From Streptomyces sp. NBC_00464 (GTDB lineage Bacteria; Actinomycetota; Actinomycetes; Streptomycetales; Streptomycetaceae): DNA of 64,000 bases. The stretch spans positions 2,046,001 to 2,110,000 of the forward strand of contig NZ_CP107899.1 in assembly GCF_036013915.1 (NCBI RefSeq), in the 5' to 3' direction. Positions within the stretch are counted from its first letter, which is position 1. Each line of letters opens with the position of its first letter. Under the pieces are notes generated by a model that was not told where the DNA came from, did not search any database, and worked only from the letters and a program-made list of their open reading frames with translations. The translations under genes and the position numbers were made by a program. Positions 10,800 through 29,847 of this stretch are shown in pieces.

Positions 10800-11195
10800 A
10801 TGCTTTCCCGCCTGTTTGCCCCCAAGGTGAAGGTCAGCGCCCACTGCGACCTCCCCTGCGGCGTGTACGACCCGGCCCAGGCCCGCATCGAGGCGGAGTC
10901 CGTCAAGGCCGTCCAGGAGAAGTACCAGGCCAACGAGGACCCGCACTTCCGGGCCCGCGCGGTGGTCATCAAGGAGCAGCGCGCCGAGCTCGCCAAGCAC
11001 CACGTCTCGGTGCTGTGGAGCGACTACTTCAAGCCCCCGCACTTCGAGAAGTACCCGGAGCTGCACCAGCTGGTCAACGACGCCCTCAAGGCGCTGTCGG
11101 CCGCGAAGGGCTCCACGGACCCGGCCACGGGCCAGAAGGCGCTCGACTTGATCGCCGAGATCGACAAGATCTTCTGGGAGACCAAGAAGGCTTGA
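10800..11195 (+). CDS. sodN: nickel-containing superoxide dismutase precursor
   Basis: This 131-residue precursor carries a 14-residue leader (MLSRLFAPKVKVSA) and then the nickel hook HCDLPCGVYDP, whose His1, Cys2 and Cys6 bind nickel after SodX cleavage. The rest is the expected four-helix bundle, so length and sequence match NiSOD exactly. The ATG follows aggaagga at 10786-10793. In S. coelicolor NiSOD expression responds inversely to SodF through Nur and a small RNA; I did not verify such a site here. The last 5 codons and the stop are part of the attachment repeat of the adjoining mobile element. Confidence 0.97.
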   Translation: MLSRLFAPKVKVSAHCDLPCGVYDPAQARIEAESVKAVQEKYQANEDPHFRARAVVIKEQRAELAKHHVSVLWSDYFKPPHFEKYPELHQLVNDALKALSAAKGSTDPATGQKALDLIAEIDKIFWETKKA

Positions 11196-11310
11196 TCTAC
11201 GGTTAGGCCGTCTGACCTGCGGTTTCGCTGGTCATATGGCCTACCGGTCCGCACCCGGTCCGCAGGCCGCCGAGCACGGCGTCCATCACGGACCGGGTGC
11301 GGTCTTCTTC
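11177..11310. repeat. attL, left attachment repeat (regenerated sodN 3' end plus terminator)
   Basis: This copy aligns to 29466-29604. The first 15 bases are identical, and about 8 mismatches fall in the first 54 columns. A hairpin with 14-bp arms (11249-11262 and 11289-11302) matches the attR hairpin. Because sodN is intact here, the repeat must restore its final codons, stop and terminator. The integrase stop codon (11203-11205) lies inside it. Confidence 0.88.
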
Positions 11311-12357
11311 GCCCGGCCACAGGTGCGCGTAGATCCGCAGGGTGATGACGGCGGACGCGTGGCCGAGGACCATCTGGACCTGCTTGACGCTCGCCCCGCC
11401 CGCGATGAGCGCGGAGGCGTAGAAGTGCCGCAGGTCGTGGGTCACCATGTGCGGCAGCCCGACGGGCTTGCGGCCCTCGTTCTTGGCCGCCTCGCTCTCC
11501 TCCGCCTGGAGCGCCCTACGGGCGCAGTTCCACTCGGTCTTCCAGCGGCGGTAGTTGAGCGGCTCCCCCTCCTCCATCGTGAACAGCCACTCCGTGGAGG
11601 GGCGGGCGGCGAGGTGTCCGAGAAGCGCGTCGGTGACGACCTCCCCGACCGGAACGGTTCGACGTGACTTCGCGGTCTTCGGCGGGCCGACCTTCCCCGA
11701 CTGGAGCCGCTGCCGCTCCACGCGGATGGTGCCGGCCTTGAAGTCGACATCCGCCACCTTGAGGCCGAGCAACTCACCTATGCGCAAGCCTGACCCTGCG
11801 AGCACGACGACGGCTGACCGGATGTACGGCGGCATCACGCGTGCCATGTCCTCCACCTGGGCGACGGTGGGCGGAGTGACCTCCTCGTCCGGCATGACCG
11901 GAAGGGTGATCCGGCGGCACGGAGTGGATGCGATGACCTTGTCGTCCACGGCCGCGGTCATGACGCGCACGAGGACGTCGTGGACGTTCCGGACGCTGCC
12001 GGGGCCGAGCTGGTCGGACAGGTGCTTGAAGAGCACCTGTATGTCATTACGGCGTATCGCCGCCAGTGAGCGGGCGCCCAACGCCGGTACGAGGTGGAGC
12101 CGGAGCGCGTTGTCGGTGATGCGCTCACCCGCCTCGCTCGCGATGAGCGAGCCCTGCCACCTCTCGGCGTACTTCTGGAACGTGATGCGACCGGCGCGCG
12201 GGTCGACGTACTGACCGGTGACCACGCTGGTCGTGACTTCGTCGAGCCAGCGCTGGGCGTCGAGCTTCCGGTCGAAGTGGCGGGCGTGCTCCTTGCCGTC
12301 GAGGTCACGGTATCGGGCGCGCCATTTGCCGTTGGGGCGCTTCTGGATGTTCGCCAA
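11203..12357 (-). CDS. int: tyrosine-type site-specific integrase of the sodN-integrated element
   Basis: This 384-residue recombinase has an N-terminal arm-binding Arm-DNA-bind region (KRPNGKWRARYRDLDGKEH), a core-binding SAM-like domain (about residues 58-150) and a catalytic domain. The catalytic residues are Arg192 (GSGLRIGELL), Lys near 227, His307 and Arg310 (THDLRH), His333 (LGHAS) and the nucleophile Tyr343 (RIYAH). It is convergent with sodN, and the stop codons are 7 bases apart. Its C-terminal 35 residues are read through the attL terminator hairpin, so this sequence is both code and terminator. It catalyses integration into sodN. Confidence 0.95.
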   Translation of the reverse strand: MANIQKRPNGKWRARYRDLDGKEHARHFDRKLDAQRWLDEVTTSVVTGQYVDPRAGRITFQKYAERWQGSLIASEAGERITDNALRLHLVPALGARSLAAIRRNDIQVLFKHLSDQLGPGSVRNVHDVLVRVMTAAVDDKVIASTPCRRITLPVMPDEEVTPPTVAQVEDMARVMPPYIRSAVVVLAGSGLRIGELLGLKVADVDFKAGTIRVERQRLQSGKVGPPKTAKSRRTVPVGEVVTDALLGHLAARPSTEWLFTMEEGEPLNYRRWKTEWNCARRALQAEESEAAKNEGRKPVGLPHMVTHDLRHFYASALIAGGASVKQVQMVLGHASAVITLRIYAHLWPGEEDRTRSVMDAVLGGLRTGCGPVGHMTSETAGQTA

Positions 12358-12381
12358 GTGGCTTCTCCTCTGTGCTGGTTG

Positions 12382-12882
12382 TCAGTAGTGGCCCCCGTCC
12401 TCGATGTCGCCGCTGAGGACGCGGGCGTCTCGCTCGTCCCCCATGAGGCGGAGGCATTGCTCATGGATCGCCCGCGAGCTGTCCGGGTGGGCCTTGATGT
12501 GGCCGGCGACGGCGACCACGGCACGGTGCAGACGGTCGCGGGCGTCACGGGTTTCGTAGAACGCTTCGACGGCTTCCTGGACGAGCCGTCGGCTGTCGAC
12601 GTCGAGCCCTTCGAGGGGCGGCGACATCAGCTCTTCGAGGGGGAGCTCGAAGACGCGGGAGAAGGCGAGCGCCTCGTCGAGGTTGATCCGGCGACGGGGT
12701 GAGCCGTTCTCGATGCGCCAGACGGCCGTCTGGTTCATCTTCACGCCGGCTCTGGTCACCCGTTCGGCCAGCTCGGTCGTGCTCCAGCCTCTGACCTCGC
12801 GCTCCAGGGCCACGCGGCCCGCCACGTTGCCTTCGCTGTAGAGCAGCGGCACCTCGCCACCCTCGGGCTTCTCGCTTGCCAT
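12382..12882 (-). CDS. XRE-type helix-turn-helix protein, likely element repressor
   Basis: This 166-residue protein has an XRE/Cro-like helix-turn-helix around residues 20-85 (WSTTELAERV ... NQTAVWRIENG) and a helical C-terminal half. It lies 24 bases upstream of the integrase, on the same strand. The ATG at 12882 is preceded by GGAGG at the right spacing; a start 30 bases further up lacks this. It is divergent from the excisionase gene, so it probably controls the int/xis switch, an inference from position. Confidence 0.8.
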   Translation of the reverse strand: MASEKPEGGEVPLLYSEGNVAGRVALEREVRGWSTTELAERVTRAGVKMNQTAVWRIENGSPRRRINLDEALAFSRVFELPLEELMSPPLEGLDVDSRRLVQEAVEAFYETRDARDRLHRAVVAVAGHIKAHPDSSRAIHEQCLRLMGDERDARVLSGDIEDGGHY

Positions 12883-13002
12883 CGAACCTCCATCGCGACC
12901 ATCGCTATCCAAATTGAAACACGGGCTTCCCGGTTTGGCTAACCGCCGATCATGAGGTACTGATTATGCAGATCGAATCACTACCTAGCCGAATGGGAAC
13001 GC

Positions 13003-13197
13003 ATGCGATACCTGACCACCGCCGAGGTAGCCGAGCGCTACCGCACCGCCGAGAGCACCGTCCGCTACTGGCGCCAGCTCAAGAAGGGGCCGCGCGGCAT
13101 CAAGGTCGGCAAGCGGGTGCTCTACCCCGAGGCCGAACTGCTGCGCTACGAGCGCGCGCTTATCGACGGCGGAGACGAGTGGGGCCTGGCCTCATGA
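13003..13197 (+). CDS. excisionase / MerR-like winged-helix DNA-binding protein
   Basis: This 64-residue protein is almost entirely one winged-helix domain (MRYLTTAEVAERYRTAESTVRYWRQ). It has the final strand GKRVLYPEAEL typical of helix-turn-helix domain 17 excisionases. Such proteins bend att DNA and steer tyrosine integrases to excision. It lies first in the rightward operon of the element and is followed by a strong hairpin, so read-through to the next gene may be limited. Confidence 0.85.
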   Translation: MRYLTTAEVAERYRTAESTVRYWRQLKKGPRGIKVGKRVLYPEAELLRYERALIDGGDEWGLAS

Positions 13198-13223
13198 GCC
13201 GCCGGACCGCCCGGACACAGGAA

Positions 13224-13253
13224 CGGCCCTCGGCGCGCCTACGCCGAGGGCCG
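13224..13253. terminator. 12-bp hairpin after the excisionase gene
   Basis: A perfect inverted repeat (13224-13235 with 13242-13253) has a 6-base loop and sits 27 bases past the stop. It may terminate or attenuate transcription before the DUF3631 gene. Confidence 0.75.
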
Positions 13254-13340
13254 GAGATCCCCTTGCACCTCGCCCATCCCTGAACGAACTGGTCGGGGGC
13301 GAGACCTTGCCCGTCTCGCCCCCACCTGAGAGGAACATCT

Positions 13341-14780
13341 ATGAAGGACCCTACGTCCCCCGCCACCTCGAAGGCATCCGGTGTTGCCTGGCCACCGATC
13401 GCGGTCCCGGGCCAGGGTCTGCCTCGCGACCGAGAAGCACGCCCCGCCATCGGAGGCCCGCCCGCCGATGCTCCGAGCCGGAGCTCACGCGATTCGCGAC
13501 CTGCCGAAACTAGTGCCCCGACAACAGCGTCGGACAACGCAGGCGTTCCTGCTCCAGGCGGACCAGAGTCCCAAGATAGCGGCGGGCCGGCAGGCGAAGG
13601 CAGCGCGCTGCTGGACGATCTCCGCACGGCGATCGGGCGGTACGTGGTGCTGCCGAGCGACGAGGCCCTGACCGCCGTCACGCTCTGGGTCGCGGCCTCC
13701 CACATCCAGCCGGGCCTCCAGCACGCGCCACGGCTGGCGGTGGTCGGGCCGACCAAGGGGTGCGGCAAGTCCCGTCTCCTGGACGTCCTCTACGAGACCG
13801 TCCACCAGCCGATGATGACGGTGAACACCTCCCCCGCCGTCGTCTTCCGCGTCATCGGCAAGAACCCGCCGACGCTGCTGGTGGACGAGGCAGACACCAT
13901 CTTCGGCCCCAAGGCAGGCGACAAGGAGGACCTGCGCGGCCTTCTGAACGCAGGGCACCAGCGCAACCGGCCCGCCTGGCGGATCTCCGGTCCTGAGCAC
14001 AAGCCGACCGCGTTCCCCACCTTCGCCATGGCGGCGCTGGCCGGCATCGGCGACCTGCCGGACACGATCATGGACCGGGCGATCGTCATCCGCATGCAGA
14101 AGCGCAAGCCGGGTGAGCGGATCACCCCGTTCCGATCGCGATACTCCGTACCGGAACTGCACGCGATTCGCGACCGGCTGGCCGACTGGCTGGTCCCGCA
14201 GCGCGGCACCGTCGCGGGCGCGGTGCCGAAGATGCCCGTCGAGGACCGCGCCGCCGACACATGGGAGCCGCTCGTCATCGTCGCCGACCTCGCCGGCGGG
14301 CACTGGCCCGCGCGGGCACGTGCCGCTTGCCTCGCGATGACGCGCAACGAGGTGGTCCAGGACGAGCAGACGACGCTGAAGACGCGGCTGCTGCGTGACA
14401 TCCGCCGCGTCTTCGACCAGGAGGCCGGCAAGGAGGCCATGCGCAGCCAGGACCTGCTCGCGGTCCTCATCCAGGACGCCGAGGCTCCGTGGGCGGAGTA
14501 CGGCACGAAGGGGTTGAACGCCTACCACCTGGCGAATCTGCTGCGCGACTTCGGTATCAGCCCGGCCAACTACCGGTTCGAGAACGGCAGGCAGGCCAAG
14601 GCGTACGCCCGCAACCAGTTCGTGGACGCATGGGCCCGCTACTGCCCCGACCCCGCCCTGTCGGCACCCACCGCCGAGGTCCCGGCACATCCGACCCGGG
14701 GCAGGCCGCCCGCCCCTCCGTCCGGGACGCTGCCCACCGGCCCGCCGGGAGGGCCCGCAGGCCCCAGGCCCACTCGCTGA
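13341..14780 (+). CDS. DUF3631-domain ATPase, plasmid/AICE replication-type protein
   Basis: This 479-residue protein has a disordered Pro/Ser/Ala-rich N-terminus (residues 1-90). An ATPase core follows, with Walker A GPTKGCGKS near residue 137 and Walker B LLVDEAD near 177. The later stretch GIGDLPDTIMDRAIVIRM is typical of DUF3631 proteins. These occur in actinobacterial plasmids and integrative elements, often beside primase-like functions, and are presumed helicase-type replication proteins. A primase domain is not visible here. ATG 13341 follows gagaggaac. The gene precedes a repeat-rich gap and mobC. Confidence 0.8.
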   Translation: MKDPTSPATSKASGVAWPPIAVPGQGLPRDREARPAIGGPPADAPSRSSRDSRPAETSAPTTASDNAGVPAPGGPESQDSGGPAGEGSALLDDLRTAIGRYVVLPSDEALTAVTLWVAASHIQPGLQHAPRLAVVGPTKGCGKSRLLDVLYETVHQPMMTVNTSPAVVFRVIGKNPPTLLVDEADTIFGPKAGDKEDLRGLLNAGHQRNRPAWRISGPEHKPTAFPTFAMAALAGIGDLPDTIMDRAIVIRMQKRKPGERITPFRSRYSVPELHAIRDRLADWLVPQRGTVAGAVPKMPVEDRAADTWEPLVIVADLAGGHWPARARAACLAMTRNEVVQDEQTTLKTRLLRDIRRVFDQEAGKEAMRSQDLLAVLIQDAEAPWAEYGTKGLNAYHLANLLRDFGISPANYRFENGRQAKAYARNQFVDAWARYCPDPALSAPTAEVPAHPTRGRPPAPPSGTLPTGPPGGPAGPRPTR

Positions 14781-14960
14781 CACCAGGTCCGCATCAATCC
14801 GTCGCATCCGTCCCCGCGCAGGTCAGCGCGGGGACGGATCTCCTCGGCGTTACGGATCACTCCGTACCTGCCTCCGTCTCCGTACCTGTGCTGACCAGCC
14901 ACGCGACGGATGCGACGGATGCGACGACGGGCCACCCCACACGACTGACGGAGCACCACC
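14781..14960. other. candidate oriT or replication origin with repeats
   Basis: This 180-base noncoding gap between the ATPase and mobC is densely structured. It has an 8-bp hairpin (14812-14819 with 14826-14833), a 13-bp inverted repeat (14799-14811 with 14906-14918), and direct repeats of gcgacggat at 14903-14911 and 14912-14920 with a partial third. The word ccgtacctg occurs twice around 14863-14898. The position just before the MobC/relaxase genes is typical of oriT, but no nic site was identified. Confidence 0.5.
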
Positions 14961-15665
14961 ATGCCCGAATCAAACGCCGACGACCCCACCTCCCGCCGCC
15001 GCAGGAAGTTGTTCAGGCTCACCCGACGACCAGCAGCAAGCTGGAGCGAACGAGCCTCTAACGAGGCTTCGTCCGCGCTTGCCCCCGCCTCAGGGATGGC
15101 GGAGGACAAGGCCGAGCGCCAGGGGGCGCCCGAGCCGAAGGAGGGGGTGGCCGAGGACTCCGGCCGGCCCGCAGCCGACTCCGCTCCTCCCAGTAGTCCG
15201 GCCGATGCCCCACCGCTCGTCGAGCAGCTCTCCTGGCGGGATCTCGACGCCCCTGCCCTGCCCGCGCAGATGAACCGCAAGCGCACCGTGGAGAAGCGCG
15301 ACCAGGAGAAAACCATCCGCTTTACACGCACCGCAGTCCAGGTGATCAGCGCCGCCGCTCACCAGCGCGGTCAGAGGTTCGCCGGATTCGTCGGGGACGC
15401 AGCCCTGGCTGTTGCGCAGGGCAAGGCGGCGATGGTCGGCAGCCCGGAGGACGATCCTCTCCGCCCGCTGATCGAGGCCGTCGAGGCGCACACCGTCGCG
15501 CTGAACCGCATCGGCGGCAACCTCAACCAGATCACCGCAGCCATCAACCGAGGAACCGTGCCCGAGCGCGCCGAGACGGTTCTCGACCGCGTCGAGCAAG
15601 CAGCGCAGAACAGCTTCCACCTCATCGACCAGCTCCTCGCGAACGGCACGACCCATGGTTCCTGA
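14961..15665 (+). CDS. mobC: MobC-like relaxosome accessory protein
   Basis: This 234-residue protein has a low-complexity Ala/Pro/Glu N-terminal half. Its C-terminal half (KTIRFTRTAVQVISAAAHQRG near residue 118 and LNRIGGNLNQITAAINRG near 190) matches the MobC family, a ribbon-helix-helix-like protein that melts oriT for the relaxase. The motif around NRIGGNLNQI is the family hallmark. The gene overlaps the relaxase start by 11 bases, so the two are translated together. Confidence 0.85.
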   Translation: MPESNADDPTSRRRRKLFRLTRRPAASWSERASNEASSALAPASGMAEDKAERQGAPEPKEGVAEDSGRPAADSAPPSSPADAPPLVEQLSWRDLDAPALPAQMNRKRTVEKRDQEKTIRFTRTAVQVISAAAHQRGQRFAGFVGDAALAVAQGKAAMVGSPEDDPLRPLIEAVEAHTVALNRIGGNLNQITAAINRGTVPERAETVLDRVEQAAQNSFHLIDQLLANGTTHGS

Positions 15666-17331
15666 CGTCTCCACCGGCTCCGACAGCCGCGGACTGATCG
15701 CCTACCTCTTCGGCCCTGGGCGCCGCGACGAGCACACCAACCCCCACATCGTCGCCGCCTGGGACATGGCCGGTGCTCCCGATCCCGGCCGTGACCCGGC
15801 AGCCACCTACTCCCAGCTCGCCAGGCGACTCGACCACCACGTCGACCTCCGCACCCGCGAGCTGGGCGGCAAGAAGCCACCGCAGCACGTCTGGCACTGC
15901 CCGGTCCGCACCGCCCCCGGCGACCGCTACCTCACCGACAACGAGTGGGCCGAGGTCGCCCGCCGCGTCGTGCACGCCACGGGCATCGCCCCCGACGGCG
16001 ACGAGAGGGCATGCCGATGGATCGCGGTACGCCACGCCGACGACCACATCCACATCATGGCCACCACCGTCCGCGCCGACGGACGCCGCCCACGCACCCA
16101 CCAGGACGGACGCCGAGCCCAGGCCGAGTGCCGTCGGATCGAAGCTGAGTTCGGTCTGCGCCGCCTGAAGTCCGGCGACCTCACCGCGCCCCGCACCCCC
16201 ACCGGTGCCGAACGCGCCAAGGCCGAGCGCCAGGGCCAGTCGGTGACGGCACGGCACTGGCTGCGCGAGCGGGCGTACGCGGTCGCCGCCGCCGTACACA
16301 CCGAGGCCGACTACTTCACCGTGCTGCAGTCCCTCGGCATCAAGGTCAAGACACGCCTCGGCCCCGAGAGCGGCGACGTGATCGGCTACAGCCTCGCCGC
16401 ACCCGGCGACACCAACAGCGCCGGCGAACCCATCTGGTACGGCGGCTCGAAACTCGCCCCCGACCTCTCCATCAACCGCCTCCGCGAACGCCTCCCCGAC
16501 CAGGAGATGGCCGACCGCCCCCGGTATGCGGCAGACCCTGCCGAGCCGTGGGAGCACACCATCACCGCGATACAGATGGCGCACTCCGTCCTCGACTCCG
16601 ATGACGATGCCGCCGCCCAGGGCCACCTCGCCGCCTTCGGCGACGCCCTGTACAACATCGCCAGCTCCACGAGCGGCCCACACCGAGCGGAACTACGGGC
16701 GGCGGCGATGGCGTTCAACCGCGCCCGCCGCTCCGCCACCCGCGCCGACCACCAGGCCGCCACGGAACTCGCCTATGCCTCCAACGAGCCCGGCGGACTC
16801 GCCATCGCCCTGCTCTTCGCCACCGTGCACCTGGCCCGCGCCGCCGCCACGTGGCACGAACAGCGCGGCCACGAACAGCAGGCCGCTGCGGCCGAGGAAG
16901 CCTTCCTCCACCTCCAGGCGGGCTACCAGCAGGCCGCCGCACCGGCCTTGGCGGAGCTTGCCCACCGCACACCACGAGCCGCCACCGCCAGCCGCTTCGA
17001 GCAGGACGTGCGCGCGGCCCTCCCCGACCACGCCGACCGGATTCTCACCGACCCCACTTGGGCCGCCCTGACCACAACCCTCGCCCAAGCCGAAACCGCC
17101 GGCCACAACCTTCGACGTCTCCTGACCGAGGTAAGTGCCCAACGAGAACTCGACAGCGCCGAGCGCCCCGCCGAGGTCCTCAACTGGCGCATCGCCGCAC
17201 AACCGAACCGGCGGACGCAAGCCGCTCGCAGGCAAAGCGCCATCAACGGCACATCAGTCAGGTCCGCCACGCCACACCCGCCGGCTACGCCAGTGACCAC
17301 GAGGCCCGCGGAGCGCAGTCGGCACCGCTGA
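15655..17331 (+). CDS. relaxase / mobilization nuclease
   Basis: This 558-residue protein nicks oriT and pilots the strand during transfer. The N-terminal third is the relaxase domain: a conserved Tyr in LIAYLFGPGR near residue 17 and the metal-binding His triad in RHADDHIHI (His127, His131, His133). The remainder is helical and Ala/Arg-rich, as in actinobacterial relaxases that lack a helicase. It starts inside the end of mobC. A perfect 18-bp hairpin follows. With no coupling protein in the element, transfer would need a helper. Confidence 0.9.
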   Translation: MVPDVSTGSDSRGLIAYLFGPGRRDEHTNPHIVAAWDMAGAPDPGRDPAATYSQLARRLDHHVDLRTRELGGKKPPQHVWHCPVRTAPGDRYLTDNEWAEVARRVVHATGIAPDGDERACRWIAVRHADDHIHIMATTVRADGRRPRTHQDGRRAQAECRRIEAEFGLRRLKSGDLTAPRTPTGAERAKAERQGQSVTARHWLRERAYAVAAAVHTEADYFTVLQSLGIKVKTRLGPESGDVIGYSLAAPGDTNSAGEPIWYGGSKLAPDLSINRLRERLPDQEMADRPRYAADPAEPWEHTITAIQMAHSVLDSDDDAAAQGHLAAFGDALYNIASSTSGPHRAELRAAAMAFNRARRSATRADHQAATELAYASNEPGGLAIALLFATVHLARAAATWHEQRGHEQQAAAAEEAFLHLQAGYQQAAAPALAELAHRTPRAATASRFEQDVRAALPDHADRILTDPTWAALTTTLAQAETAGHNLRRLLTEVSAQRELDSAERPAEVLNWRIAAQPNRRTQAARRQSAINGTSVRSATPHPPATPVTTRPAERSRHR

Positions 17332-17404
17332 CCGCGGAATCTCCCAGCCAGATTCCCGACGAAGGGACCGGCGGGCGAAGGCCGGCGCAGCCCCCGGTGC
17401 GACA

Positions 17405-17445
17405 CGTTCCCCGAGGGAACACCGGAAGTGTTCCCTCGGGGAACG
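17405..17445. terminator. perfect 18-bp hairpin after the mobilization operon
   Basis: Arms 17405-17422 and 17428-17445 are exact complements with a 5-base loop. The gttccccgagggaac core is itself near-palindromic. Its place after the relaxase stop fits a terminator, but a protein-binding site is possible. Confidence 0.75.
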
Positions 17446-17504
17446 CCCAACCCTGAAAGGACGGGGCTTTCCGTTCAGTTCCGGATGGCGTACCAGATCA
17501 GCGA

Positions 17505-18203
17505 TCAGCTTGAGCGCTGAGCGGTTGCCTGAAGGTGCTCATAGAGGAAGGGGGCGTCGAGACGTGTGTCGATGACACGATCGCGCACGTCGGTGAGAAG
17601 CCAGCCCAGCAGTTCGGCAGTGGCGTCGTACTCATCGTAGAAGCCCATGCGCAAGTCGGTGATCTCGAACTCGAACATCACGTCGTCAACGAGGTCTGCC
17701 AAGTGCGCATCGGCGGCTGGGGTATTGGTCGCGGTCCATACGTTCAGCCAAGGACGCAGGCTGTTGGTGGCCACGGTGATGACGCTGAGGGAATCCCTGA
17801 CGGGCACGGGGCTGGGGTGAGTATGCAGCGTGCTCTGCCACCAAGCGGACCAGACGTCCTGCAGGGCCTCGGCCAAGGGCAAGCCCCAGGTGGCCCAGCC
17901 CGCGTGGATCAAGCGGGAGGCAATGAGCTCCTCGTCGATGTGGAGCCGGCCTGTGACGAGTAGCCGAATGATGCGCGGGACGAGGTGACGATAGAGACGA
18001 GGAAAGTCTTCCCAATGATCAGGCGTCTTTGCGGCAACCGAGGAAACCAGGTCGTCGCCTATGAGGTGCAGCGGGCCGGAGAGTTCGGCGAAGTCGCGAT
18101 CGCCGTAGCAGTACGTGCATCCTGTGACGAGGAAGGAACCTTCTGAGGCGAAGGCGTGGTCCAGGGCATCGAGAGCTGTCATGAGCTGCTCAGAGCAAGA
18201 CAT
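17505..18203 (-). CDS. conserved hypothetical protein (element cargo)
   Basis: This 232-residue soluble acidic protein has no signal or membrane segment. It is helical and Trp-rich in the middle (AGWATWGLPLAEALQDVWSAWWQS) and has a CTYCYGD stretch near residue 28 whose two Cys might bind metal. I do not recognise the family. It faces away from the mobilization operon and stands alone, 74 bases past the relaxase hairpin's gene end. Confidence 0.6.
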   Translation of the reverse strand: MSCSEQLMTALDALDHAFASEGSFLVTGCTYCYGDRDFAELSGPLHLIGDDLVSSVAAKTPDHWEDFPRLYRHLVPRIIRLLVTGRLHIDEELIASRLIHAGWATWGLPLAEALQDVWSAWWQSTLHTHPSPVPVRDSLSVITVATNSLRPWLNVWTATNTPAADAHLADLVDDVMFEFEITDLRMGFYDEYDATAELLGWLLTDVRDRVIDTRLDAPFLYEHLQATAQRSS

Positions 18204-18368
18204 GAAGACCTGCCGGGGGACTCCGTCCGGGTGACCGGCGAAGATCGCAGGCTATCAGGCCGTCCCCCGCCTCTCACGGAATACCTTGATGGTCCGAGTG
18301 GAGGGGAGCGCAGTTCCGTGAAGGACCTATCTCCGATCCTTACACGGGCGACTCGATAGGGTCGGGCC

Positions 18369-18887: not shown

Positions 18888-18981
18888 GTTGAGCCCCCGA
18901 CTCCACAGGAACCAGGGAGTCAACCCCACAGCGCATCCTGATGCCCTCGCTGCTCTGCTCGCGGCAGCGAGGGCATGAGCG

Positions 18982-19527: not shown

Positions 19528-19542
19528 CGGTGCCTCCGTCGG

Positions 19543-21147: not shown

Positions 21148-21224
21148 GGGGGTCTCCAGGGACTGGTGGGCTCCGGGGCGGGCGCGCGCGAGCTGGCCCG
21201 CCCCGGAGCCGTACTGGGGGTGGG

Positions 21225-21974: not shown

Positions 21975-22176
21975 CGTGTCTCCGTCTCTGATCGTCCGGG
22001 GCGAGGCATAGGAATGCCCGAACCCGTTGGGGCGTACGGAACTTGGGAGCCGCCCGGCCCGCGATGCCGTGAGTGGGGCGGCTGTCGATAAGTGAACCGC
22101 CCGCTACGCAGAGTGGGTACGGTGTGAGCGAGGTCAAGCGGTATACACGGTTTACGGATACGGAGCGGAGGCGATC

Positions 22177-23532
22177 GTGCCGGCACCGACCAGCGCCAAC
22201 TCCCGCCTGCGCGACACGATCAACGCCGTCGGGTGCACGTACGAGGCACTCGCCAGGGACGTACGCCGGATCGCTGCCGAGAACGGCGAACTGCTCCAGA
22301 CCAACAAGTCGGCCATCTCCCACTGGGTGGGCGGTGCCCGCACGCCGTCCGGCAGGGCCGGCCAGTACCTTGCCGAAGCCCTCTCCCGGCGGCTGGGCCG
22401 GGTCGTCACTCGAACCGAGCTCGGCCTCCACTCACCCGATACGGAGTCGCCACCGGACACCGACCCCGTCACCGCGGTCACCGACCTCGGCCGCGCGGAT
22501 GTCGAGCGCCGCCGCTTCCTCGCCATCGCCGCTTTCACCACGGCCGGCGTGGCCATGCCGCTCCTGCACGACCACGAGGCCACCTCGCGGATGCTCCGCG
22601 CCCGCACCGCCCGTTCCCTCGTCGGCAGCGACGACATCGACGTCGTACGGCAGATCACGGCGGCCTTCAGCGCCGCCGACGAACGCCTCGGCGGCGGCCA
22701 CGGCCTCACCACAGTCACCGCCTACCTCGCCGACACGGCAGCCCCCATGCTGCGCGGCCTCTTCCCCACAGAAGCCTTACGCCAAGCCGCCTTCGGCGCC
22801 GTCGCCGAACTCGCCTACCTCGCAGGCTGGAAGCACCACGACCTCGGCCACGAAGGCGCTGCCCAGCGCTACTACCAGGTCGGCTACCAACTTGCATGCG
22901 AAGCCGACCCCCACGGCCACGCCGCATGGATGATGCGCGCCCTCGCCCATCAATCCCTCAGCCTCAAGCAACCCCACCACTGCGTCGACCTCGTCAAAGG
23001 CGCCCTCACCCGCGGCCTCGGCCACGTCGACGGCCAGACGGAAGCGCTCCTCCACATCACGCACGCCCGCGCCTACGCAGCCGTCGGCGAGAACCCATTG
23101 GCCGCTCGTGCTCTGCTCGCCGCCGAAGACGCCCTCCTGCGCGAGGACGGTCCCCAGCCCAGCTTCTCCCGCGTCAGCGGCCCCGCCGCCGGCACCGTGG
23201 CCAGCCACACCGCCCGCACGCTGACCGACCTCGCCGACCACATCGGCACGGAACAACAGCACCGCGACGCGCTCACCCGCTGGGACCCGGAGAAGTACAA
23301 GCGCGTCCACGCACTCACCCACGCCGACCTCGGCGACAGTCTCGCCGCTCAGGCCCGCGCCGACGAAGCAGTCGCCGCCTGGACCCAGGCCCTGGTCTTC
23401 ATGGAGGGCATGACCTCAGACCGCACCCGCAAAGCGATCATCTCGATCCGCTCCACCCTCGCTATCTATCAGCGTCGCAAGGTCCCCGGCGCGGCCGAAC
23501 TCGCCCGCTGGGCAAGGGAAGCACTGACCTAA
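22177..23532 (+). CDS. XRE-like regulator with TPR domain (TTA-containing)
   Basis: This 451-residue protein has an N-terminal helix-turn-helix (GCTYEALARDVRRI ... NKSAISHWVGGARTP). A RRFL-type hinge near residue 110 and a long C-terminal tetratricopeptide array follow. Such Streptomyces regulators are often paired with metabolic or NUDIX genes. The start is GTG 22177. Codon 201 (22777-22779) is TTA, the rare Leu codon, so expression may depend on the bldA tRNA. It precedes the NUDIX gene by 35 bases. Confidence 0.82.
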   Translation: MPAPTSANSRLRDTINAVGCTYEALARDVRRIAAENGELLQTNKSAISHWVGGARTPSGRAGQYLAEALSRRLGRVVTRTELGLHSPDTESPPDTDPVTAVTDLGRADVERRRFLAIAAFTTAGVAMPLLHDHEATSRMLRARTARSLVGSDDIDVVRQITAAFSAADERLGGGHGLTTVTAYLADTAAPMLRGLFPTEALRQAAFGAVAELAYLAGWKHHDLGHEGAAQRYYQVGYQLACEADPHGHAAWMMRALAHQSLSLKQPHHCVDLVKGALTRGLGHVDGQTEALLHITHARAYAAVGENPLAARALLAAEDALLREDGPQPSFSRVSGPAAGTVASHTARTLTDLADHIGTEQQHRDALTRWDPEKYKRVHALTHADLGDSLAAQARADEAVAAWTQALVFMEGMTSDRTRKAIISIRSTLAIYQRRKVPGAAELARWAREALT

Positions 23533-23567
23533 GCTACCGACAATCAGCGGACGAAAGGACACCAGCC

Positions 23568-24050
23568 GTGGCAGACCCGCTCCCGCCCGCGCTCGACTCG
23601 ATGACCCTGCTCGTCGCCGCCGTCATCGTCCACGACAAAGCCACCAACCGCGTGGTCCTCCTCCAACGCGGCGAGAATGCCAAGTTCGCCAAAGGCATGT
23701 GGGACCTCCCGGTCGGCAAGAGCGAACCGGGCGAGCCAATCACGGAAACCGCAGTCCGCGAGCTCTACGAGGAGACCGGTCTGACCGTGAAACCGGAGGC
23801 GCTTAAGGTCGCCCACATCATCCACAGCGCGTACGGAGTCGAATCCCCCAACGGTTTCCTCACCGTCGTCTTCGCGGCCCACGAATGGACCGGCGAACCG
23901 GAGAACCGCGAGCCGCGCAAACACGCCCAGGCTCGATGGGTAGACGCCCACGCCGTCCCTGAGGAGTTTGTGGAGACCACAGCAAGCGCCCTTCACCGGT
24001 ACCTCACGGGAGGACCGGAGATCTCCCTCGACGGCTGGCGGTATCAATAG
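23568..24050 (+). CDS. NUDIX hydrolase
   Basis: This 160-residue hydrolase has a complete Nudix box near residues 49-71 (GKSEPGEPITETAVRELYEETGL, showing Gx5Ex7REUxEExGU) and should cleave a nucleoside diphosphate-linked substrate or sanitise the nucleotide pool. The start is GTG 23568 with gaaagga nine bases upstream. It is cotranscribed with the XRE-TPR regulator. Its substrate cannot be told from sequence. Confidence 0.88.
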   Translation: MADPLPPALDSMTLLVAAVIVHDKATNRVVLLQRGENAKFAKGMWDLPVGKSEPGEPITETAVRELYEETGLTVKPEALKVAHIIHSAYGVESPNGFLTVVFAAHEWTGEPENREPRKHAQARWVDAHAVPEEFVETTASALHRYLTGGPEISLDGWRYQ

Positions 24051-24147
24051 CAGCGTCTTACGGTCACCACACCATCGAAGTCCGTCTTCTACGCTCTTAG
24101 CCAGGGGCATCACCCACAGCCCTGCTCCGCAGCACTGCACACCTGCT

Positions 24148-24167
24148 AGGTCGCCGCGCGGCGACCT
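24148..24167. terminator. 20-base perfect palindrome between convergent genes
   Basis: The sequence AGGTCGCCGCGCGGCGACCT reads the same on both strands. It sits in the 282-base gap between the NUDIX and kinase genes, which converge, so a weak bidirectional terminator is likely. Nothing else was recognised in the gap. Confidence 0.45.
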
Positions 24168-24332
24168 CTCGGTTCCTCCGCGCGGCAGGGTTCAATTCCC
24201 ACCTGACGATCTACTCCTTGTGCGGTCGCGGCACGGTGAGCACCACTGGACGAAGGGGAACTGAGAGATGCGAATCGCCTGCGTCCGCAAGTCGGACAGT
24301 ACGTCGACTCTTCCCCTCTTTATCCCTTAGGG

Positions 24333-26570
24333 CTATGGCGTCACCGCAGCCGCCTGAATTGCCGCGCGGATCCGAAGGTCCACGGTTCCGTCCTGCGCCA
24401 AGCCGGAAAAGTGTTGTGCAGAGCGCGGGTGATCTCGCAGAACGGAACCTATAAGCTGCGCTGCCTGGCCTGACAGTGAGCGCAGCCAGGGCGCGATTCG
24501 ATCTTGGGCACTCCACTGATCCCATGCGGCATCCCAGGTGCACATCGTGCGGGCTGCCTCTTCGAGGAGGTCCCAGTCGTCCTTGGCTGCGGCGAAATTC
24601 GCGATGGCGTGAAGCCATACAGCGACTCGGCCAGCTTCAGCGAACTGGACCCGTCGCGTTGCTTGGCCATGAGCATGGTCGGCCATGGCCTTGAAGATGC
24701 GACCACTGGCTCGTGGGTCGCGGGACAGCCAAGGGCCTGCCTGTTCGGCGGATAGAGCTATAAGCGCGCGGACATACAGTTCATAGTCTTCGGGGTGGTC
24801 TGCGATCAGTTCGAGCAGGGACCCCACGGCCGCTGGATCGCCGGCGCGCGTCCGTTCCAACAGGCGCTTCGCTTGTTCAGTCGGAGGCTCCGCTGGCTCG
24901 GTAAGCTGGCGATTGATCAAGTCTCGGAGGCTTTGGATGCTCTGCACCCTTTGGTGAGGATCGGCGTGTGTAGCAATTCGGGTGATGTTCCTCCACGGAC
25001 CTGGAGGAGGGGAAAGCGGCATGTTCATCTGCGGATAATCGCCGGTAAGCGCCCAGGCAATGACCCGCCCGATGCCGTAGATGTCGGCTGCTGCCGTGGC
25101 CTCGTGTGCATCAACGAAGAGTTCAGGCGCTGCGAAGCCTTCCGTGCCAAGCTCGAAGCGAGTACGCCCTTCCTGCGTGGTCTGACCTCGCGGCCGTCGG
25201 ACGATTCCCCAGTCCGCGAGAGTCCATTGGTTATCCAGCAGAAGGATGTTGGACGGTTTCACGTCGCGGTGTAGCCAGTCGTGTGCATGAGCAAGTTCCA
25301 GTACATCCATCAGCGCCTCGACCAGAGCTCGCAACTGCACAGGGTCGCTCAGGTTGTCGCGCCGTTGCTCTGCGGTAGCCTGCGCCATCGGCATGACCAG
25401 CCACCCATCTACAGGGTTGGAGTCGAGGATGGGCATGTAGTGCGCGTGCTGGCCAAGCAGCTGAGAGATTTCAATCTCTCGCCTCATCCGAGCGGCGGGG
25501 GTGTCTCGCTGCGATGTTCTCCGCTTGAAGGCGACTTCGACGTCGGTTGGCTTGTGAACGGCTCGGAAGATCTGCGCCTGTCCACCCTCCTCTTTGGGGA
25601 GGCGATCGAGACGATAGTCCCTCCGCTCCCCGCGGGCCTGAGCACGGACCAGATCATATGGGTTGAGGGCAGCATCCTTGGCTGCAGAGACACGGATGCG
25701 TGCCGTCTGGGGCGGGGCCATAGGCCGGGCCTGTACTGGAATACGTTGCCCACCGTAAATGGCGTGACCGCTGATCGAGTCTACGGGCATCAGCGCATAG
25801 CCATCGCGGACCAACAGGGAATTAAAGAGTTCTAGCAGCTTTCGCAGTTCTGCTTCGTCAATCCGCACTACAGGGTGGAGCATTTCAGAGAGGAAGCGCA
25901 GGAGAACCGAGTCTGGACCGCTCCTCAATCCGAATCGTTCGTCAGTAAATACCCAGTCCAGTTCCCAGTCATCGTTGTTGGCGCGATGCTGGTAGATGTC
26001 ACCTTCGGCCGTTTTGAAACGGGAGTCGTAGCTTTCGAACGCGTTCAGATTGAAAATGCGCTTGAGGAACTCAGCCTCCTCTAGCCTGCCAGCCCAGTCG
26101 GTACCCTGAAGCCGCAGGGTGTCGAAGAGTCGCATGCGGGTGACTTCGGTAATGCGGGCCGACTTGCCGTCGCCTATAAGTGTGTCTTGCGGCTGGAAGA
26201 GCGTTGACTCTTGGCCTCCTCCCAACGCCTGCCGCCAGTTCATGTCCGGGGCATGGAGGGCTGGCCTAACCAGGATTTGATTGACGGCAGGTCGGCCATT
26301 CTGAGCGGCCACCTCAGCGATCGTGGGCAGCAAGTGGTCCAAGACCTCATCGTCAAAGCTGGGAGTGTCTACTGCGTCGATGTAGAGGATGGCGGCCCAG
26401 TAGTAATCGTTCCAGTTACTGGATGTCGTGTAGCCGTCCTCTGTCTGCTCGAATTCCAGCCTTTCAACTGCGCGTAGCAGTTCCGTCGCCCCGATATTCG
26501 AGCGAGCAGCAAAAATCGCGGCAGCCTGCGCCAATACACGCTCTCCGAGTTGCTCCCGCCCGCTGTTCAT
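24333..26570 (-). CDS. Hanks-type Ser/Thr protein kinase with AbiJ-like N-terminal region
   Basis: This 745-residue protein has three parts. Residues about 160-275 resemble the AbiJ N-terminal domain 3 of abortive-infection proteins (LLRFLSEMLHPVV, FNSLLVRDGYAL). Residues about 320-540 are a kinase: ATP Lys in VAFKRR, catalytic loop HRDVKPSN near 434, metal site DWG instead of DFG near 453, and APE-type GTEGFAAPEL. A helical C-terminal tail follows. No membrane segment is seen. It sits in a less GC-rich minus-strand block with DUF488 genes. Homology to a phage-defence kinase is inferred from domain pattern. ATG 26570 was chosen over one 24 bases upstream. Confidence 0.8.
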   Translation of the reverse strand: MNSGREQLGERVLAQAAAIFAARSNIGATELLRAVERLEFEQTEDGYTTSSNWNDYYWAAILYIDAVDTPSFDDEVLDHLLPTIAEVAAQNGRPAVNQILVRPALHAPDMNWRQALGGGQESTLFQPQDTLIGDGKSARITEVTRMRLFDTLRLQGTDWAGRLEEAEFLKRIFNLNAFESYDSRFKTAEGDIYQHRANNDDWELDWVFTDERFGLRSGPDSVLLRFLSEMLHPVVRIDEAELRKLLELFNSLLVRDGYALMPVDSISGHAIYGGQRIPVQARPMAPPQTARIRVSAAKDAALNPYDLVRAQARGERRDYRLDRLPKEEGGQAQIFRAVHKPTDVEVAFKRRTSQRDTPAARMRREIEISQLLGQHAHYMPILDSNPVDGWLVMPMAQATAEQRRDNLSDPVQLRALVEALMDVLELAHAHDWLHRDVKPSNILLLDNQWTLADWGIVRRPRGQTTQEGRTRFELGTEGFAAPELFVDAHEATAAADIYGIGRVIAWALTGDYPQMNMPLSPPPGPWRNITRIATHADPHQRVQSIQSLRDLINRQLTEPAEPPTEQAKRLLERTRAGDPAAVGSLLELIADHPEDYELYVRALIALSAEQAGPWLSRDPRASGRIFKAMADHAHGQATRRVQFAEAGRVAVWLHAIANFAAAKDDWDLLEEAARTMCTWDAAWDQWSAQDRIAPWLRSLSGQAAQLIGSVLRDHPRSAQHFSGLAQDGTVDLRIRAAIQAAAVTP

Positions 26571-26860
26571 CGCCCACTTCCCCCTCGCACGCACAGTCGG
26601 ACATGGTCCGCGCTTACGTCAGCAATTCCTATTCGATCAGGCACGGCAGACCCGCCCCCCTACATCACGCCATCCGCTCAGAACGATAAGACGGCTATCG
26701 TAGACCCGATGGAACCAGGGAGAGGAAGCCTGATCTTCGCGCAAGTGAGCGAACTGAGGATGGAGCTCATCTTCGAACTGACGGCTACAGAGAGCGGCTC
26801 CGGCAGCGCCAGCTCAGACGACTGTAGTTGTGGGGCGGCTCTTGACCGCAGCGCCGCAGC

Positions 26861-27298
26861 TCACGCCAGGTGCTCGATTGTGACGTCATCCCACTGCTGT
26901 GCGAGATAATCCGCGACCAACCGGCGGTGGCAATGCTGCGCATTGTCCTCGCTACAGAGCAGGACTGCGTTGTCGAACACCTCTCGCCGGATGGTTTCCT
27001 CAATCTGACGAGCCTTTATCAATTCGAGGAATCGTTCTTCGTAGGCCGCCCATCCGATATCCCGCTTCTTGTAGGCGTCGAGCATCTCCTTGGTCGGCGC
27101 CAACTCGGTACGGTGAGCGTACTGCGCACCGCAGATCTCACCCAGGAAGTACCTAAGATCATCACGCTTGGCGAAACCGGATAGTTGTGAGACGTTGTTG
27201 AGTCGAACATCGACCAGCGCTGTCACTCCAACTTCGCGCAATAGCCCGAAAAACTTTTCGGCAGACTTCTTCGTGAACCCAATGGTGTAGAGTTTCAT
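26861..27298 (-). CDS. DUF488 family protein, shorter copy
   Basis: This 145-residue protein is a DUF488 domain: MKLYTIGFTKKSAEKFF at the start, LVDVRLNN, and the C-terminal signature CSEDNAQHCHRRLVADYL with Cys and His. The biochemical role is unknown; proposals link these proteins to nucleic acids or thiol chemistry, but none is certain. It overlaps the end of the next DUF488 gene by 4 bases and is translationally coupled. About 290 bases separate it from the kinase. Confidence 0.88.
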   Translation of the reverse strand: MKLYTIGFTKKSAEKFFGLLREVGVTALVDVRLNNVSQLSGFAKRDDLRYFLGEICGAQYAHRTELAPTKEMLDAYKKRDIGWAAYEERFLELIKARQIEETIRREVFDNAVLLCSEDNAQHCHRRLVADYLAQQWDDVTIEHLA

Positions 27299-27909
27299 CT
27301 TTCTGGTGTCCCGTCGATGCGAAGCTCCTCGTTAACATACGCGATCCGTTGTTCCTGACGGTCGAGAGCTTCTTGGAGGCGCTCGACCGAGGTCCGGAAA
27401 AGATCTTCCTGATCCAGCCCGAAATTAGCCATCAGGCGTCGCATGGCCGAGGCATGGTCCTCGATATGCCCGTCACCATGAATGTGTTCGACAGTGATCC
27501 CGTCCCCTTCGAGGACTCGCGCGACGAGCACGCAACGATGACAGTCGAGTGGTTCCTGTTCGGTGCACATGACAGCGACTCGCTCGCTCTGCGAACCGTT
27601 CCGCAGGCGCTTGATGCCGCTCTCGAAATCCGAGGTCCGGGCAAGAAGGTCGTACCGCACCCGTCCGTCGACATAGCAGGTGAGGTCTCCGGTACGCGCG
27701 CCCAGTTCCTTTCCCAGGAAGACGTACTTAATATCGACGTCGGACAGGATACGCTCCACAGCGTATCGATTGAACTGGGGCGTGAATCGACTGACGGGCA
27801 TCGACCGCACATCGGCGACTGCAGTGATTCCATGCTTCTGCAGTAGACTCAGGAAACCTGAGCTGCTGTGCGTGGAATGGCCGATAGTGAATACTGTATG
27901 AGGTGTCAT
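27295..27909 (-). CDS. DUF488 family protein, longer copy
   Basis: This 204-residue protein starts with the classical DUF488 signature FTIGHSTHSSSGFL and VADVRSMPVSRFTPQF. It carries the Cys/His motif CTEQEPLDCHRCVL near residue 115 and ends with a helical, coiled-coil-like extension. It is only distantly similar to the shorter copy, which follows with a 4-base overlap. It starts 14 bases after the dual-OB gene. Two unlike DUF488 genes side by side suggest a heteromeric complex. Confidence 0.9.
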   Translation of the reverse strand: MTPHTVFTIGHSTHSSSGFLSLLQKHGITAVADVRSMPVSRFTPQFNRYAVERILSDVDIKYVFLGKELGARTGDLTCYVDGRVRYDLLARTSDFESGIKRLRNGSQSERVAVMCTEQEPLDCHRCVLVARVLEGDGITVEHIHGDGHIEDHASAMRRLMANFGLDQEDLFRTSVERLQEALDRQEQRIAYVNEELRIDGTPER

Positions 27910-27923
27910 CGCCTGCTGCCTGT

Positions 27924-28604
27924 TTAGATATTCGCTCGTTCGATAATGGCTGCCACTAATTTGTAGACGTAGCCTTCAAACGGTTCACCCAGGCTCACCG
28001 TAAGGAAGGATTCACCCAGTTCGTAGACCCCTTCCGGTTTGGCCATATATTCCAGCTCATATTGGGGATCGGTCACCCGCAGTATATATTCATGTGCCTT
28101 GTAAGAGAAGCGGGCACGTAGGACCCGCTTCTGATCACCGAACATCGCCCCGGGGACATGTAGCTGTAACGTCAGGTCGGTGACGCGTATCAGCTTAAGC
28201 GAGTCCGAAAGAGTGACAGTTTCTTCAATCGGGATGTGGTCATTATTTCCATGATAGGTACTGGACCCGTTGACCCACAGTGTGCTGGGGCGCTGCTCCA
28301 AGCTCAGTAATCCTCTCCACCCAACCCTGCCGGTCTTCTTCCAGTAGTAATCGGGGTCAAGGAGCCAATTCTCGATCTGGAAGTTGTGCGACTGTGGCCG
28401 AAGAAGTGGCACCGAGACAATATCGAGAACATTCGGGTCGGTTCCATCTTCGTACTGCCTTTCGCGGGCGGAGACTTCGCGGTTCAGGCGAGCGCTGACT
28501 GGGCGTACCCACTCTCCTGAATCGTCGTCAACCATGCCTGCAACACACCGGCCCGAAAGCTTGCGGGAATTTGCGAGACACACGAGTGTCTTTATCAGTG
28601 CCAT
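27924..28604 (-). CDS. probable dual OB-fold protein, first gene of the DUF488 operon
   Basis: This 226-residue protein starts MALIKTLVCLANSRKLSGRC and contains WVRPVS, the ERQYEDGTDPNVLDIVSVPL segment and ENWLLDPDYYWKKTG. I recall this pattern from proteins annotated with a dual OB-containing domain that sit beside DUF488 genes. The fold implies binding of nucleic acid or nucleotides, possibly as the sensor of the operon. ATG 28604 is preceded by a G-run (ggggg). An in-frame extension upstream is Arg-rich and unlikely. Confidence 0.7.
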   Translation of the reverse strand: MALIKTLVCLANSRKLSGRCVAGMVDDDSGEWVRPVSARLNREVSARERQYEDGTDPNVLDIVSVPLLRPQSHNFQIENWLLDPDYYWKKTGRVGWRGLLSLEQRPSTLWVNGSSTYHGNNDHIPIEETVTLSDSLKLIRVTDLTLQLHVPGAMFGDQKRVLRARFSYKAHEYILRVTDPQYELEYMAKPEGVYELGESFLTVSLGEPFEGYVYKLVAAIIERANI

Positions 28605-29465
28605 GCGTACCCCCCAAAAAAATCTGATACAGCGACTTCCTGCGGGACGAAAGCGCGGCGCACCTACACGAAGCGATGACGAGCGCAATGGATTGTCAGT
28701 TCCGCGAGTCATCCAAGAGCCTACGACGGGGGTACGACACCCGTCTGCCGTTCAGGCTAGCGCGATGTTCAAACCAGATCATGGTGCGCTTCGCCCCCAG
28801 GCCGGCTGGCTAGCGCCACACGGGGCAGCCGACGACTAGGTGTTGGGCGGTGTTTCGGCGTAGTCGCATGACGCTCGGTTCCTGGTAGCCCGTCAGGTCA
28901 GGCGCGAGGCCGGAACGTGACACGCATGGCTTCCAAGATCATGAACTTCTCGACGCCCGGTGACCCGAGTGGAAGACCGTGCCCTGCCGACGCTTCATCG
29001 CCGACCCCGCCAATCCTTGACCAGCTCCGCTAGCACGCCGAGGTCGTACATTTCCGAGGAGGTCACGAGCTTTCTGAAGCGGTTGGCCAAGGCGCCCGCC
29101 ACCGCGTGCGCGGTCCTGGCTGGGGCGACCTCGCTGCTGGTGGCGAGGTCCTCCCTCCGGGGACATCACGCAACAAAGCCAGCTCGGCCGTACGGCAAGG
29201 CCCGCCGCCGCGCTGAGCAGTGCGGCATCGAGTGGCGACGCTGCCGAGGAGATTCCGAAAAAGGCCCACTCCTTCTGTGCCAACACCCCGCTCCAGGATT
29301 AAGGCCACTGCTGCTCCGGCGGCAGAGCGCCGCAGCAGCAGTCCGCACGCAGTCCGCAAGACACCCGATCAAGACCGTCACACTCCATCGCCAGCCAACA
29401 GCAAAAGGCCAGGTCAGCAACCCGCAGAAAAGATCCCCGCAGGTCACCGACCCGGCCCATTACTA
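28605..29465. other. 861-base degenerate region between the DUF488 operon and attR
   Basis: No intact gene is convincing. The left part should hold the promoter of the DUF488 operon. The only trace of coding sequence is a minus-strand frame at 28995-29165. Short frames on both strands lack start signals and typical codon bias. It is the decayed right end of the element. Confidence 0.5.
28995..29165 (-). pseudogene. possible 3' remnant of an unrecognised gene
   Basis: An open frame of 56 codons without a start runs into a stop. Its product ends with a protein-like segment (ANRFRKLVTSSEMYDLGVLA). It is bounded upstream by an in-frame stop, so at most a decayed tail remains. Family unknown. Confidence 0.25.
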
Positions 29466-29604
29466 GGAGACCAAGAAGGCCTGATCTCCGGTTGGGCCGC
29501 CTGACCCGCGATATCGCGGGTCGCGTCGCTCGTACCTGACCGCACCCGGTCCGCGGGGCGCCGATGACGGCGTCCGTCGCGGACCGGGTGCGGTTTTTTG
29601 CCAG
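29466..29604. repeat. attR, right attachment repeat (duplicated sodN 3' end and terminator)
   Basis: The copy begins with GGAGACCAAGAAGGC followed by a TGA stop, the last residues (ETKKA) of sodN out of context. It then aligns to attL through the terminator. It lacks any upstream sodN sequence, as expected for the chromosomal half left behind by insertion. Confidence 0.88.
29540..29599 (+). terminator. displaced original sodN terminator
   Basis: A perfect 15-bp stem (29540-29554 with 29579-29593) with a smaller hairpin inside is followed by six T residues. It matches the weaker attL hairpin and is best read as the native sodN terminator, now 18 kb from the gene. Confidence 0.85.
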
Positions 29605-29847
29605 TATGAGCATGGAGGCACAGAAGCGCCGCGGATCCGTGGATTCCCTGCGATCAGCTGAACAGGCCTGCCTCCAGTGGGACCTTCGACGCGCGTAAAC
29701 GCGACACCACCGAGCACACCGGCAGCCACGCCGGTCGACTCCACAATTCCCCCGCTCGTCGACGTGGCGCCGATACCCCGAGCGGACGGACGGATTCTCG
29801 TCAAAGTGACATGCTGGAGGCTTCGCTGAAGCAAGGGAGTTGGGCTC

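Follow-up and report, generated by a model that had tools for sequence, protein, structure and literature searches.

How did the last codons of sodN, the gene for nickel superoxide dismutase, come to stand twice in the genome of Streptomyces sp. NBC_00464, with an integrase gene between the two copies? The stretch that raises this question comprises 64,000 nucleotides of contig NZ_CP107899.1 (GCF_036013915.1, positions 2,046,001 to 2,110,000), which we call the window and whose first letter is position 1 in what follows. The identity of sodN is given by the longer open reading frame (ORF) 10647-11195 that contains it (TIGR02753, E 1.5e-55; Sod_Ni of Pfam, E 7.2e-45). Its 3' end, GAGACCAAGAAGGCTTGA, is repeated at 29467 with C replacing T in the last codon; the 20-mer GAGACCAAGAAGGC[T/C]TGATC occupies 11178-11197 and 29467-29486, the core starts being 18,289 bases apart, and no other site in the 64 kb, on either strand, has fewer than 6 mismatches to the tested 20-mer GAGACCAAGAAGGCCTGATC. 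The answer that we put forward with high confidence is that the 18.3 kb from 11178 to 29466, at the 3' end of sodN, form an integrative and mobilizable element (IME) that was inserted by the tyrosine integrase it encodes, with the last codons of sodN serving as the chromosomal site (attB) for recombination with the site of the element (attP). Comparison of genomes indicates this along four lines: hybrid cores, flanks linked to the element, a step in identity where the core lies, and an off-target insertion that follows the same rule. An earlier reading of the letters alone (the sequence-only reading) had pointed to a diverged direct repeat of the sodN end and terminator, to an integrase at its left end and to a last codon that is gct in one copy and gcc in the other; all three are real, the wider repeat running from about 11174 to 11313 and from about 29463 to 29602.

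The same reading took sodN to be the attB, and the company that the integrase keeps in other genomes bears this out. Public genome contigs were scanned with the integrase and the best 80 of 135 relatives kept, 68 with at least 70% identity and 12 with 42-46%. Among the 68 named loci of the closer class, sodN faces the integrase in 63, at one fixed distance in 62 of them and at 71 nt in L220. The other five (L190, L200, L210, L214, and L218) have no sodN in the stretch examined, which in L214 ends at the integrase and in L218 holds only the last 11 codons of the gene; all 12 integrases of the distant class are likewise without sodN in the stretch examined. Within the genus, an integrase with 77% identity or more, complete or partial, occurs in 38 of 392 genomes, and in 36 of these sodN faces integrase coding DNA, the distance being at most 100 nt in 35 and 232 nt in G381; one genome, G214, has a stub at sodN and a full integrase about 4.3 kb off, while the two genomes without an integrase-facing sodN are G025 and G278. 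The gene itself was found in 387 of the 392. Full-length integrases of the sodN group also stand at sodN in Streptomyces turgidiscabies Car8 (L211) and Streptomyces ipomoeae 91-03 (L176).

The junctions are informative about what the element brings with it. Cores were sought in the window and in 40 fetched stretches, and 24 loci had both under set rules, one of which was likeness to the right end of the element, CCGGCCCATTACTAG; L102 and L106 have no recognised core on the side of sodN, and the remaining stretches outside the 24 have no recognised far core. L098 and G025 depart from the CCGGCCCATTACTAG type of right end. In the 24 loci the stop codon TGA is followed by TCT on the sodN side in 22 cases and on the far side in 6, the rest being varied, and the wobble base of the last codon (sodN side/far side) is T/C in 15 pairs, C/C in 4, T/T in 3, T/G in 1, and C/T in 1. 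These counts suggest that the element usually completes the last sodN codon. Comparison with S. mutomycini (L156) gives the same boundary: identity is 92.3% in the coding sequence of sodN and 70.8% in 10500-10800, followed by 149 identical positions out of 149 over 11192-11340. Against S. poriferorum (L157) the step is opposite, with 99.7% before this boundary and 95.3% after it, and six further pairs are less clear-cut. Beyond the far core, the DNA of L112, L116-L118, L121, and L128 is unlike that of the sodN side, as judged by eye. The part that behaves as attachment core is limited to the 14-18 nt that precede and reach the stop codon; the 139-base repeat as a whole is not a plain att duplication, and the remainder of its far copy looks like the remnant of an older visitor. 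In S. buecherae (L129, genome G031) the flanks of both cores are alike and the wobble bases are reversed.

The strongest evidence for recognition of DNA, a defined exchange and overwriting of the target end comes from G025, in which a full element (integrase 91% and relaxase 87% identical) lies at the 3' end of a gene for a solute-binding protein of the SBP_bac_5 family instead of sodN; the sodN of this genome already carries an element-like flank. Its attL is GAGATCAAGAAGGC and its attR GAGACCAAGAAGAA, with GAGATCAAGAAGGCCTGA at the junction of the sodN-side type and GAGACCAAGAAGAACTGA at the far junction, 17.1 kb on. If these junctions keep the left and right parts of the host gene, respectively, then the crossover fell inside CAAGAAG and KKN was the native end of the gene product. 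P0001 of Streptomyces sp. NPDC048577, the nearest homologue, differs only at residues 384 and 526, the last, and ends FWEIKKN; its gene is predicted to lack the element and to have AAGAAGAACTGA, or synonymous codons, at its 3' end. Of 120 homologues listed, 85 end in KKx, x being N in 2 and A in 7, so that A is possible as a native end in general. By inference, the insertion in G025 has changed the last residue of the target from N to A. Mapped from the G025 junctions to these 7 nt, the crossover in the window most likely fell at 11183-11189.

What, then, does sodN receive at its new 3' end? The gene stops at 11195 and the convergent integrase has its stop codon at 11203-11205, so that what sodN receives as its flank is the coding sequence of the integrase in antisense. 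The hairpin in this flank (z -6.6 and -7.5) codes DRTRSVMDAVLGGLRTGCG within the 3' coding end of the integrase. Across 61 loci with the element the consensus structure is paired in 98.9% of its cells, and 7 of its 22 pairs show variation on both sides, a count that stands without a shuffle control. A scan of 10500-30500 with Rfam gave no match up to E 1. Comparisons of junctions and flanks agree with the earlier proposal that the element supplies a new 3' end to sodN, including the last base of the last codon. In the mechanism that we propose, the integrase would join attP to attB in the last codons of sodN by strand exchange within CAAGAAG, and the element would bring the final base of the Ala codon, the stop codon and the hairpin, so that sodN stays whole. 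Excision may be aided by the small HTH_17 protein, and transfer may proceed via the relaxase of the element and the secretion system of a helper. When an element decays, the integrase stub would tend to persist as the 3' flank of sodN. As pure inference, a predicted overlap of about 100 nt between the convergent genes could allow nickel-dependent transcription of sodN to damp the expression of the integrase.

How widespread is the flank? At E<1e-5 a profile of it matched 59 of the 150 sodN loci in the sample, as against 0 of 300 reversed or shuffled controls; the sample is not random (30 top-ranked loci, the next 60, and 60 lower-ranked genomes spread by hand). Thirteen places were passed over in this sample, 12 having been fetched before and one lying at a contig end (G182); 11 of these 12 loci also carry the flank at E<1e-5, making 70 of 162 in all. 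Of the 59 flank loci, 4 retain a near full-length integrase no more than 1.3 kb away (split into two pieces in one case), 14 a partial gene and 41 a stub or the flank only, hence decayed remnants look common. The C-terminus of the integrase is coded at E<1e-3 in 43 of the 59, and the median peptide score is 73 of 104 in the 41 stub loci versus 19 in loci without the flank. Among 17 sodN loci in 16 genomes outside the genus, not one has the flank, and 16 of the 17 have AAGCAG in place of the AAGAAG of the core. A hairpin pattern allowing two mismatches proved uninformative, as it matches 392 of 392 genomes. We read the integrase-less flank loci as putative remnants of elements. Whether the 3' flank and terminator of sodN in a large part of Streptomyces are a domesticated, terminator-shaped 3' coding end of the integrase, left by repeated invasion and decay, is a bolder proposition, to which we give slightly less than an even chance. 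The idea that the 3' untranslated region of sodN is the source of a small RNA was dropped, for the title of PMC3919588 gives sodF as the source.

Could the hairpin instead be the native terminator of sodN, captured into attP and the integrase gene, with the integrase-less loci as the ancestral state? The many sodN loci that have the flank and no integrase would fit, as would similar hairpin arms around other middles (L141, L299, L302, L305) and a flank whose correlation with host distance is at least equal to that with the integrase. However, the hairpin arm codes a [DE]RTR..xD-like end that recurs in 11 of the 12 distant integrases (42-46% identity), the twelfth having one change; moreover, the 14 loci with a longer integrase piece, the high peptide scores of the stub loci and the lack of the flank outside the genus speak for the reverse direction, and we regard capture as unlikely, if deserving serious attention. 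That the repeat goes back to an old tandem duplication of the end of sodN with its terminator, the integrase being a bystander, is hardly credible: this would account for a repeat that is diverged and longer than a typical core, but in many species the same integrase recurs with the same spacing to sodN, far cores adjoin unlike DNA in many loci, and a second gene, in G025, shows the same junction rule and would have to have ended natively in KKA, its nearest homologue ending in KKN. That the element is a prophage or an actinomycete integrative and conjugative element (AICE), instead of a mobilizable element, appears very improbable. AICEs are common in Streptomyces (PMC3218068; PMC9513070) and one IMG/VR contig has a 97% identical integrase, but the ORFs scanned contain no virion gene and no FtsK/TraB match, a relaxase and a MobC-like protein are present, and phage and plasmid records matched by the integrase are all below 60% identity, the top ones listed having 34-35%. 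The IMG/VR contig in question, L378, is 46.8 kb long and shows no sodN in the 7-kb stretch examined.

Several observations weigh against insertion into sodN by the element's own integrase, or against parts of this account. In L190, L200, and L210 an integrase of 85-86% identity lies next to decayed cores, and the stretch examined contains no sodN; the wobble bases of L129 run the wrong way, and 4 of the 24 pairs are C/C and 3 T/T. DNA of the window strain with an empty sodN site was not found, the element-free state of the P0001 gene is deduced from the end of its protein and not from its DNA, and excision, the circle and transfer are predicted from sequence alone. Regarding the flank, the consensus terminator scan lists the far hairpin and not the one at sodN, the T run of which is broken; in L141, L299, L302, L305, and L310, hairpins armed with CCGCACCCGG have an unrelated middle, and part of the hairpin may for this reason be native. 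The partial rank correlation of the flank is 0.17 with the integrase (a value attained in 10 of 500 permutations) and 0.25 with the host (attained in 1 of 500), which makes the distance test neutral: a flank that follows the integrase rather than the host is not borne out.

The far side of the window element adds a historical dimension to insertion at sodN. An antisense trace of the integrase C-terminus is found at 29533-29598 (KNRTRSATDAVIGAPRTGCGQV, 64% over 22 aa, E 5.8e-7), and the segment 29481-29604 is probably the remnant of an older element. This would explain the length of about 139 bases for the repeat, since its likeness would extend past the core because the far side is itself element-like. 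The DNA with the Nudix gene that follows has its match inside the sodN element of G023, with weaker relatives (up to 80%) in other genomes, and is possibly the rest of an older visitor. The sodN site of the window was thus probably invaded at least twice, the present element having joined a previously occupied site. In the right flanks of L155, L097, L099, and L122, matches to the window resume only at 46.3-50.3 kb. The intervening region of about 15 kb (30700-46300) encodes Golvesin_C-like proteins, a YoeB-type toxin domain, an MFS protein and tRNA-Met; the 20-mer scan found no further core from 30.7 to 46 kb, and we do not claim this region for the element.

A second family of tyrosine integrases faces sodN in other genomes, which makes sodN a shared target of at least two integrase families. 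This recombinase of 454 aa has 25% identity to the first integrase over 212 residues, with a LysM match inside its catalytic part that is above the cut-off in one of G006 and G278 and below it in the other. Both genomes have a longer repeat of the sodN 3' end (11-12 codons, 33-36 bp) at about 40 and 52 kb from sodN. At E<=1e-100 the recombinase was found in 2 of 256 genus genomes (G006 and G184), facing sodN in both, G278 being evidently outside this draw.

Between the cores the order of genes is integrase (facing sodN), repressor-like regulator, HTH_17 protein, DUF3631 protein, MobC-like protein, relaxase, and cargo (table 1). The putative catalytic residues of the integrase, assigned by motif, are R192, H307-x-x-R310, H333, and Y343. 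Backbone genes were followed in 18 loci with a full integrase, corresponding to 17 genomes (G025 enters with two loci, of which L106 is truncated); L096 stops at the end of its contig. Relatives of the relaxase have mobC annotated next to them in Streptomyces plasmids; with the ten plasmid places among the matches listed its identity is 35-47%, and several of these are annotated as 'mobilization protein'. The AbiJ_NTD3-kinase protein is probably a defence protein, and the adjoining PDC-M45 genes constitute a candidate defence system; none of the 40 other stretches compared has this cargo, bar one weak kinase match. PHROGs run on 9 element ORFs matched the integrase and regulator only, and neither these nor the Pfam scans gave a virion structural gene. 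Among the ORFs scanned with Pfam, which are not all those of the element, there is neither an FtsK/TraB-type translocase nor a type IV secretion gene; ORFs 19036-21255 and 21246-22091 of the family scans probably represent the opposite strand of true genes, which the scans covered in part.

Table 1. Features of the sodN locus in the window and, where a locus handle is given, in other genomes
Feature	Coordinates	Strand	Basis or remark
sodN, nickel superoxide dismutase, target gene	10800..11195	+	131 aa, ends ETKKA; start assumed at the ATG, 10800
attL core GAGACCAAGAAGGC	11178..11191	+	24 loci with both cores; off-target insertion in G025
Putative element-supplied sodN 3' flank (last Ala-codon base, stop, untranslated region, hairpin ~11247-11304)	11192..11312	+	L156 identity; overlaps integrase 3' end
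Tyrosine integrase, 384 aa	11203..12357	-	PF00589 (Phage_integrase) E 1.8e-25; phrog_1 integrase E 7.5e-63
Repressor-like regulator, 176 aa	12382..12912	-	phrog_3 transcriptional repressor E 6.4e-6; 17/18 full-integrase loci
Small HTH_17 protein, 64 aa, excisionase candidate	13003..13198	+	PF12728 E 1.5e-9; 15/18 loci
DUF3631 protein, backbone gene	13341..14780	+	PF12307 E 1.4e-71; 14/18 full-integrase loci
MobC/NikA-like relaxosome protein	14961..15665	+	PF05713 E 0.0017, weak, under Pfam cut-off; 15/18 loci
MobA/VirD2-type relaxase, 558 aa	15655..17331	+	PF03432 E 2.6e-9; 15/18 full-integrase loci
Cargo: AbiJ_NTD3 + protein kinase	24333..26594	-	PF18860 E 1.6e-49; Pkinase E 2.2e-22
Cargo: PDC-M45 A, B, C (DuOB, DUF488, DUF488)	26861..28712	-	PADLOC E 7.6e-101, 3.1e-97, 3.8e-77
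Element right end CCGGCCCATTACTAG	29452..29466	+	Identical or near-identical before far core in 24 two-core loci (a selection rule for these)
attR core GAGACCAAGAAGGC	29467..29480	+	20-mer scan; 24 two-core loci
Putative displaced former sodN 3' end and terminator	29481..29604	+	Listed as terminator-like; hairpin z -7.8 and -8.0
DNA with Nudix gene (29939-30388)	29741..30682	+	88.4% over 946 bp to L122 1859-2801
Second tyrosine integrase family, 454 aa, facing sodN	L115:17417-18781, L104:1038-2402, L377
G025 off-target copy at solute-binding protein gene	L106:12027-13607 and L399:590-17747

In evolutionary terms, sodN, a near-universal redox gene of the genus, joins the protein genes that serve as attachment sites in Streptomyces. 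While tRNA sites are stressed in PMC3218068, a population survey has 14 of 51 insertion sites in protein-coding genes, with the 3' end of rlmN among the targets (PMC9513070), and both bacA (PMC4057263) and aviX1 (PMC10711302) are described as sites at the 3' end of a protein gene, the former with tandem islands and eroded integrases. The sequence-only reading had considered sodN an unusual and undescribed target: protein-coding targets are not exceptional in Streptomyces, so the first half of this is too strong, while for the second no title or abstract among the matches listed from open-licence papers names sodN as a site, even if unnamed entries of island databases may exist. The word 'superoxide' is absent from the main text of PMC9513070, PMC12884075, PMC3218068, and PMC10711302, and 'sodN' from that of PMC12884075, PMC10711302, and PMC4057263. 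The pair of integrase and attB comes, besides, with a natural off-target insertion, by which the crossover can be confined to 7 nt. If the integrase-less flanks are indeed remnants, mobile elements would have replaced the end of one housekeeping gene again and again, leaving behind a working part, a testable case of the conversion of mobile-element coding sequence into a host terminator.

Among known systems, the PAISt islands of bacA share integration at the 3' end of a protein gene, border copies of about 140 bp, tandem modules and eroded integrases (PMC4057263), but have another target, the integrase INTSt, an 8-bp palindrome (TTCATGAA), a far larger size and other cargo. Elements at the 3' end of aviX1 (the TR1/TR2 site) may be related to those of the distant integrases: in 11 of the 12 with 42-46% identity, the sequence that the integrase faces matches TAGACGTTGAAGCGGAAC, which PMC10711302 gives as a border of the aviX1 island, either exactly (5 cases) or with a single mismatch. 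Their gene and core are different, L222 lacks the border, and the 42-46% loci are candidate members of TR1/TR2. With AICEs such as pSAM2 the element has in common an integrase, a small HTH gene and an actinobacterial host; it differs in having a relaxase, no TraB/FtsK-type gene found and a site that is not a tRNA gene. As to a RepSA-type or other AICE replication gene, the observation is a DUF3631 protein. With IMEs the element shares a site-specific integrase with att direct repeats, its own relaxase, a relaxosome-like protein and no secretion system in the ORFs scanned. We file the element, on its predicted gene content, as an IME of a known kind that is set apart by its new target, sodN, and by an unusual flank in which the hairpin of the target gene is encoded in the 3' end of the integrase.

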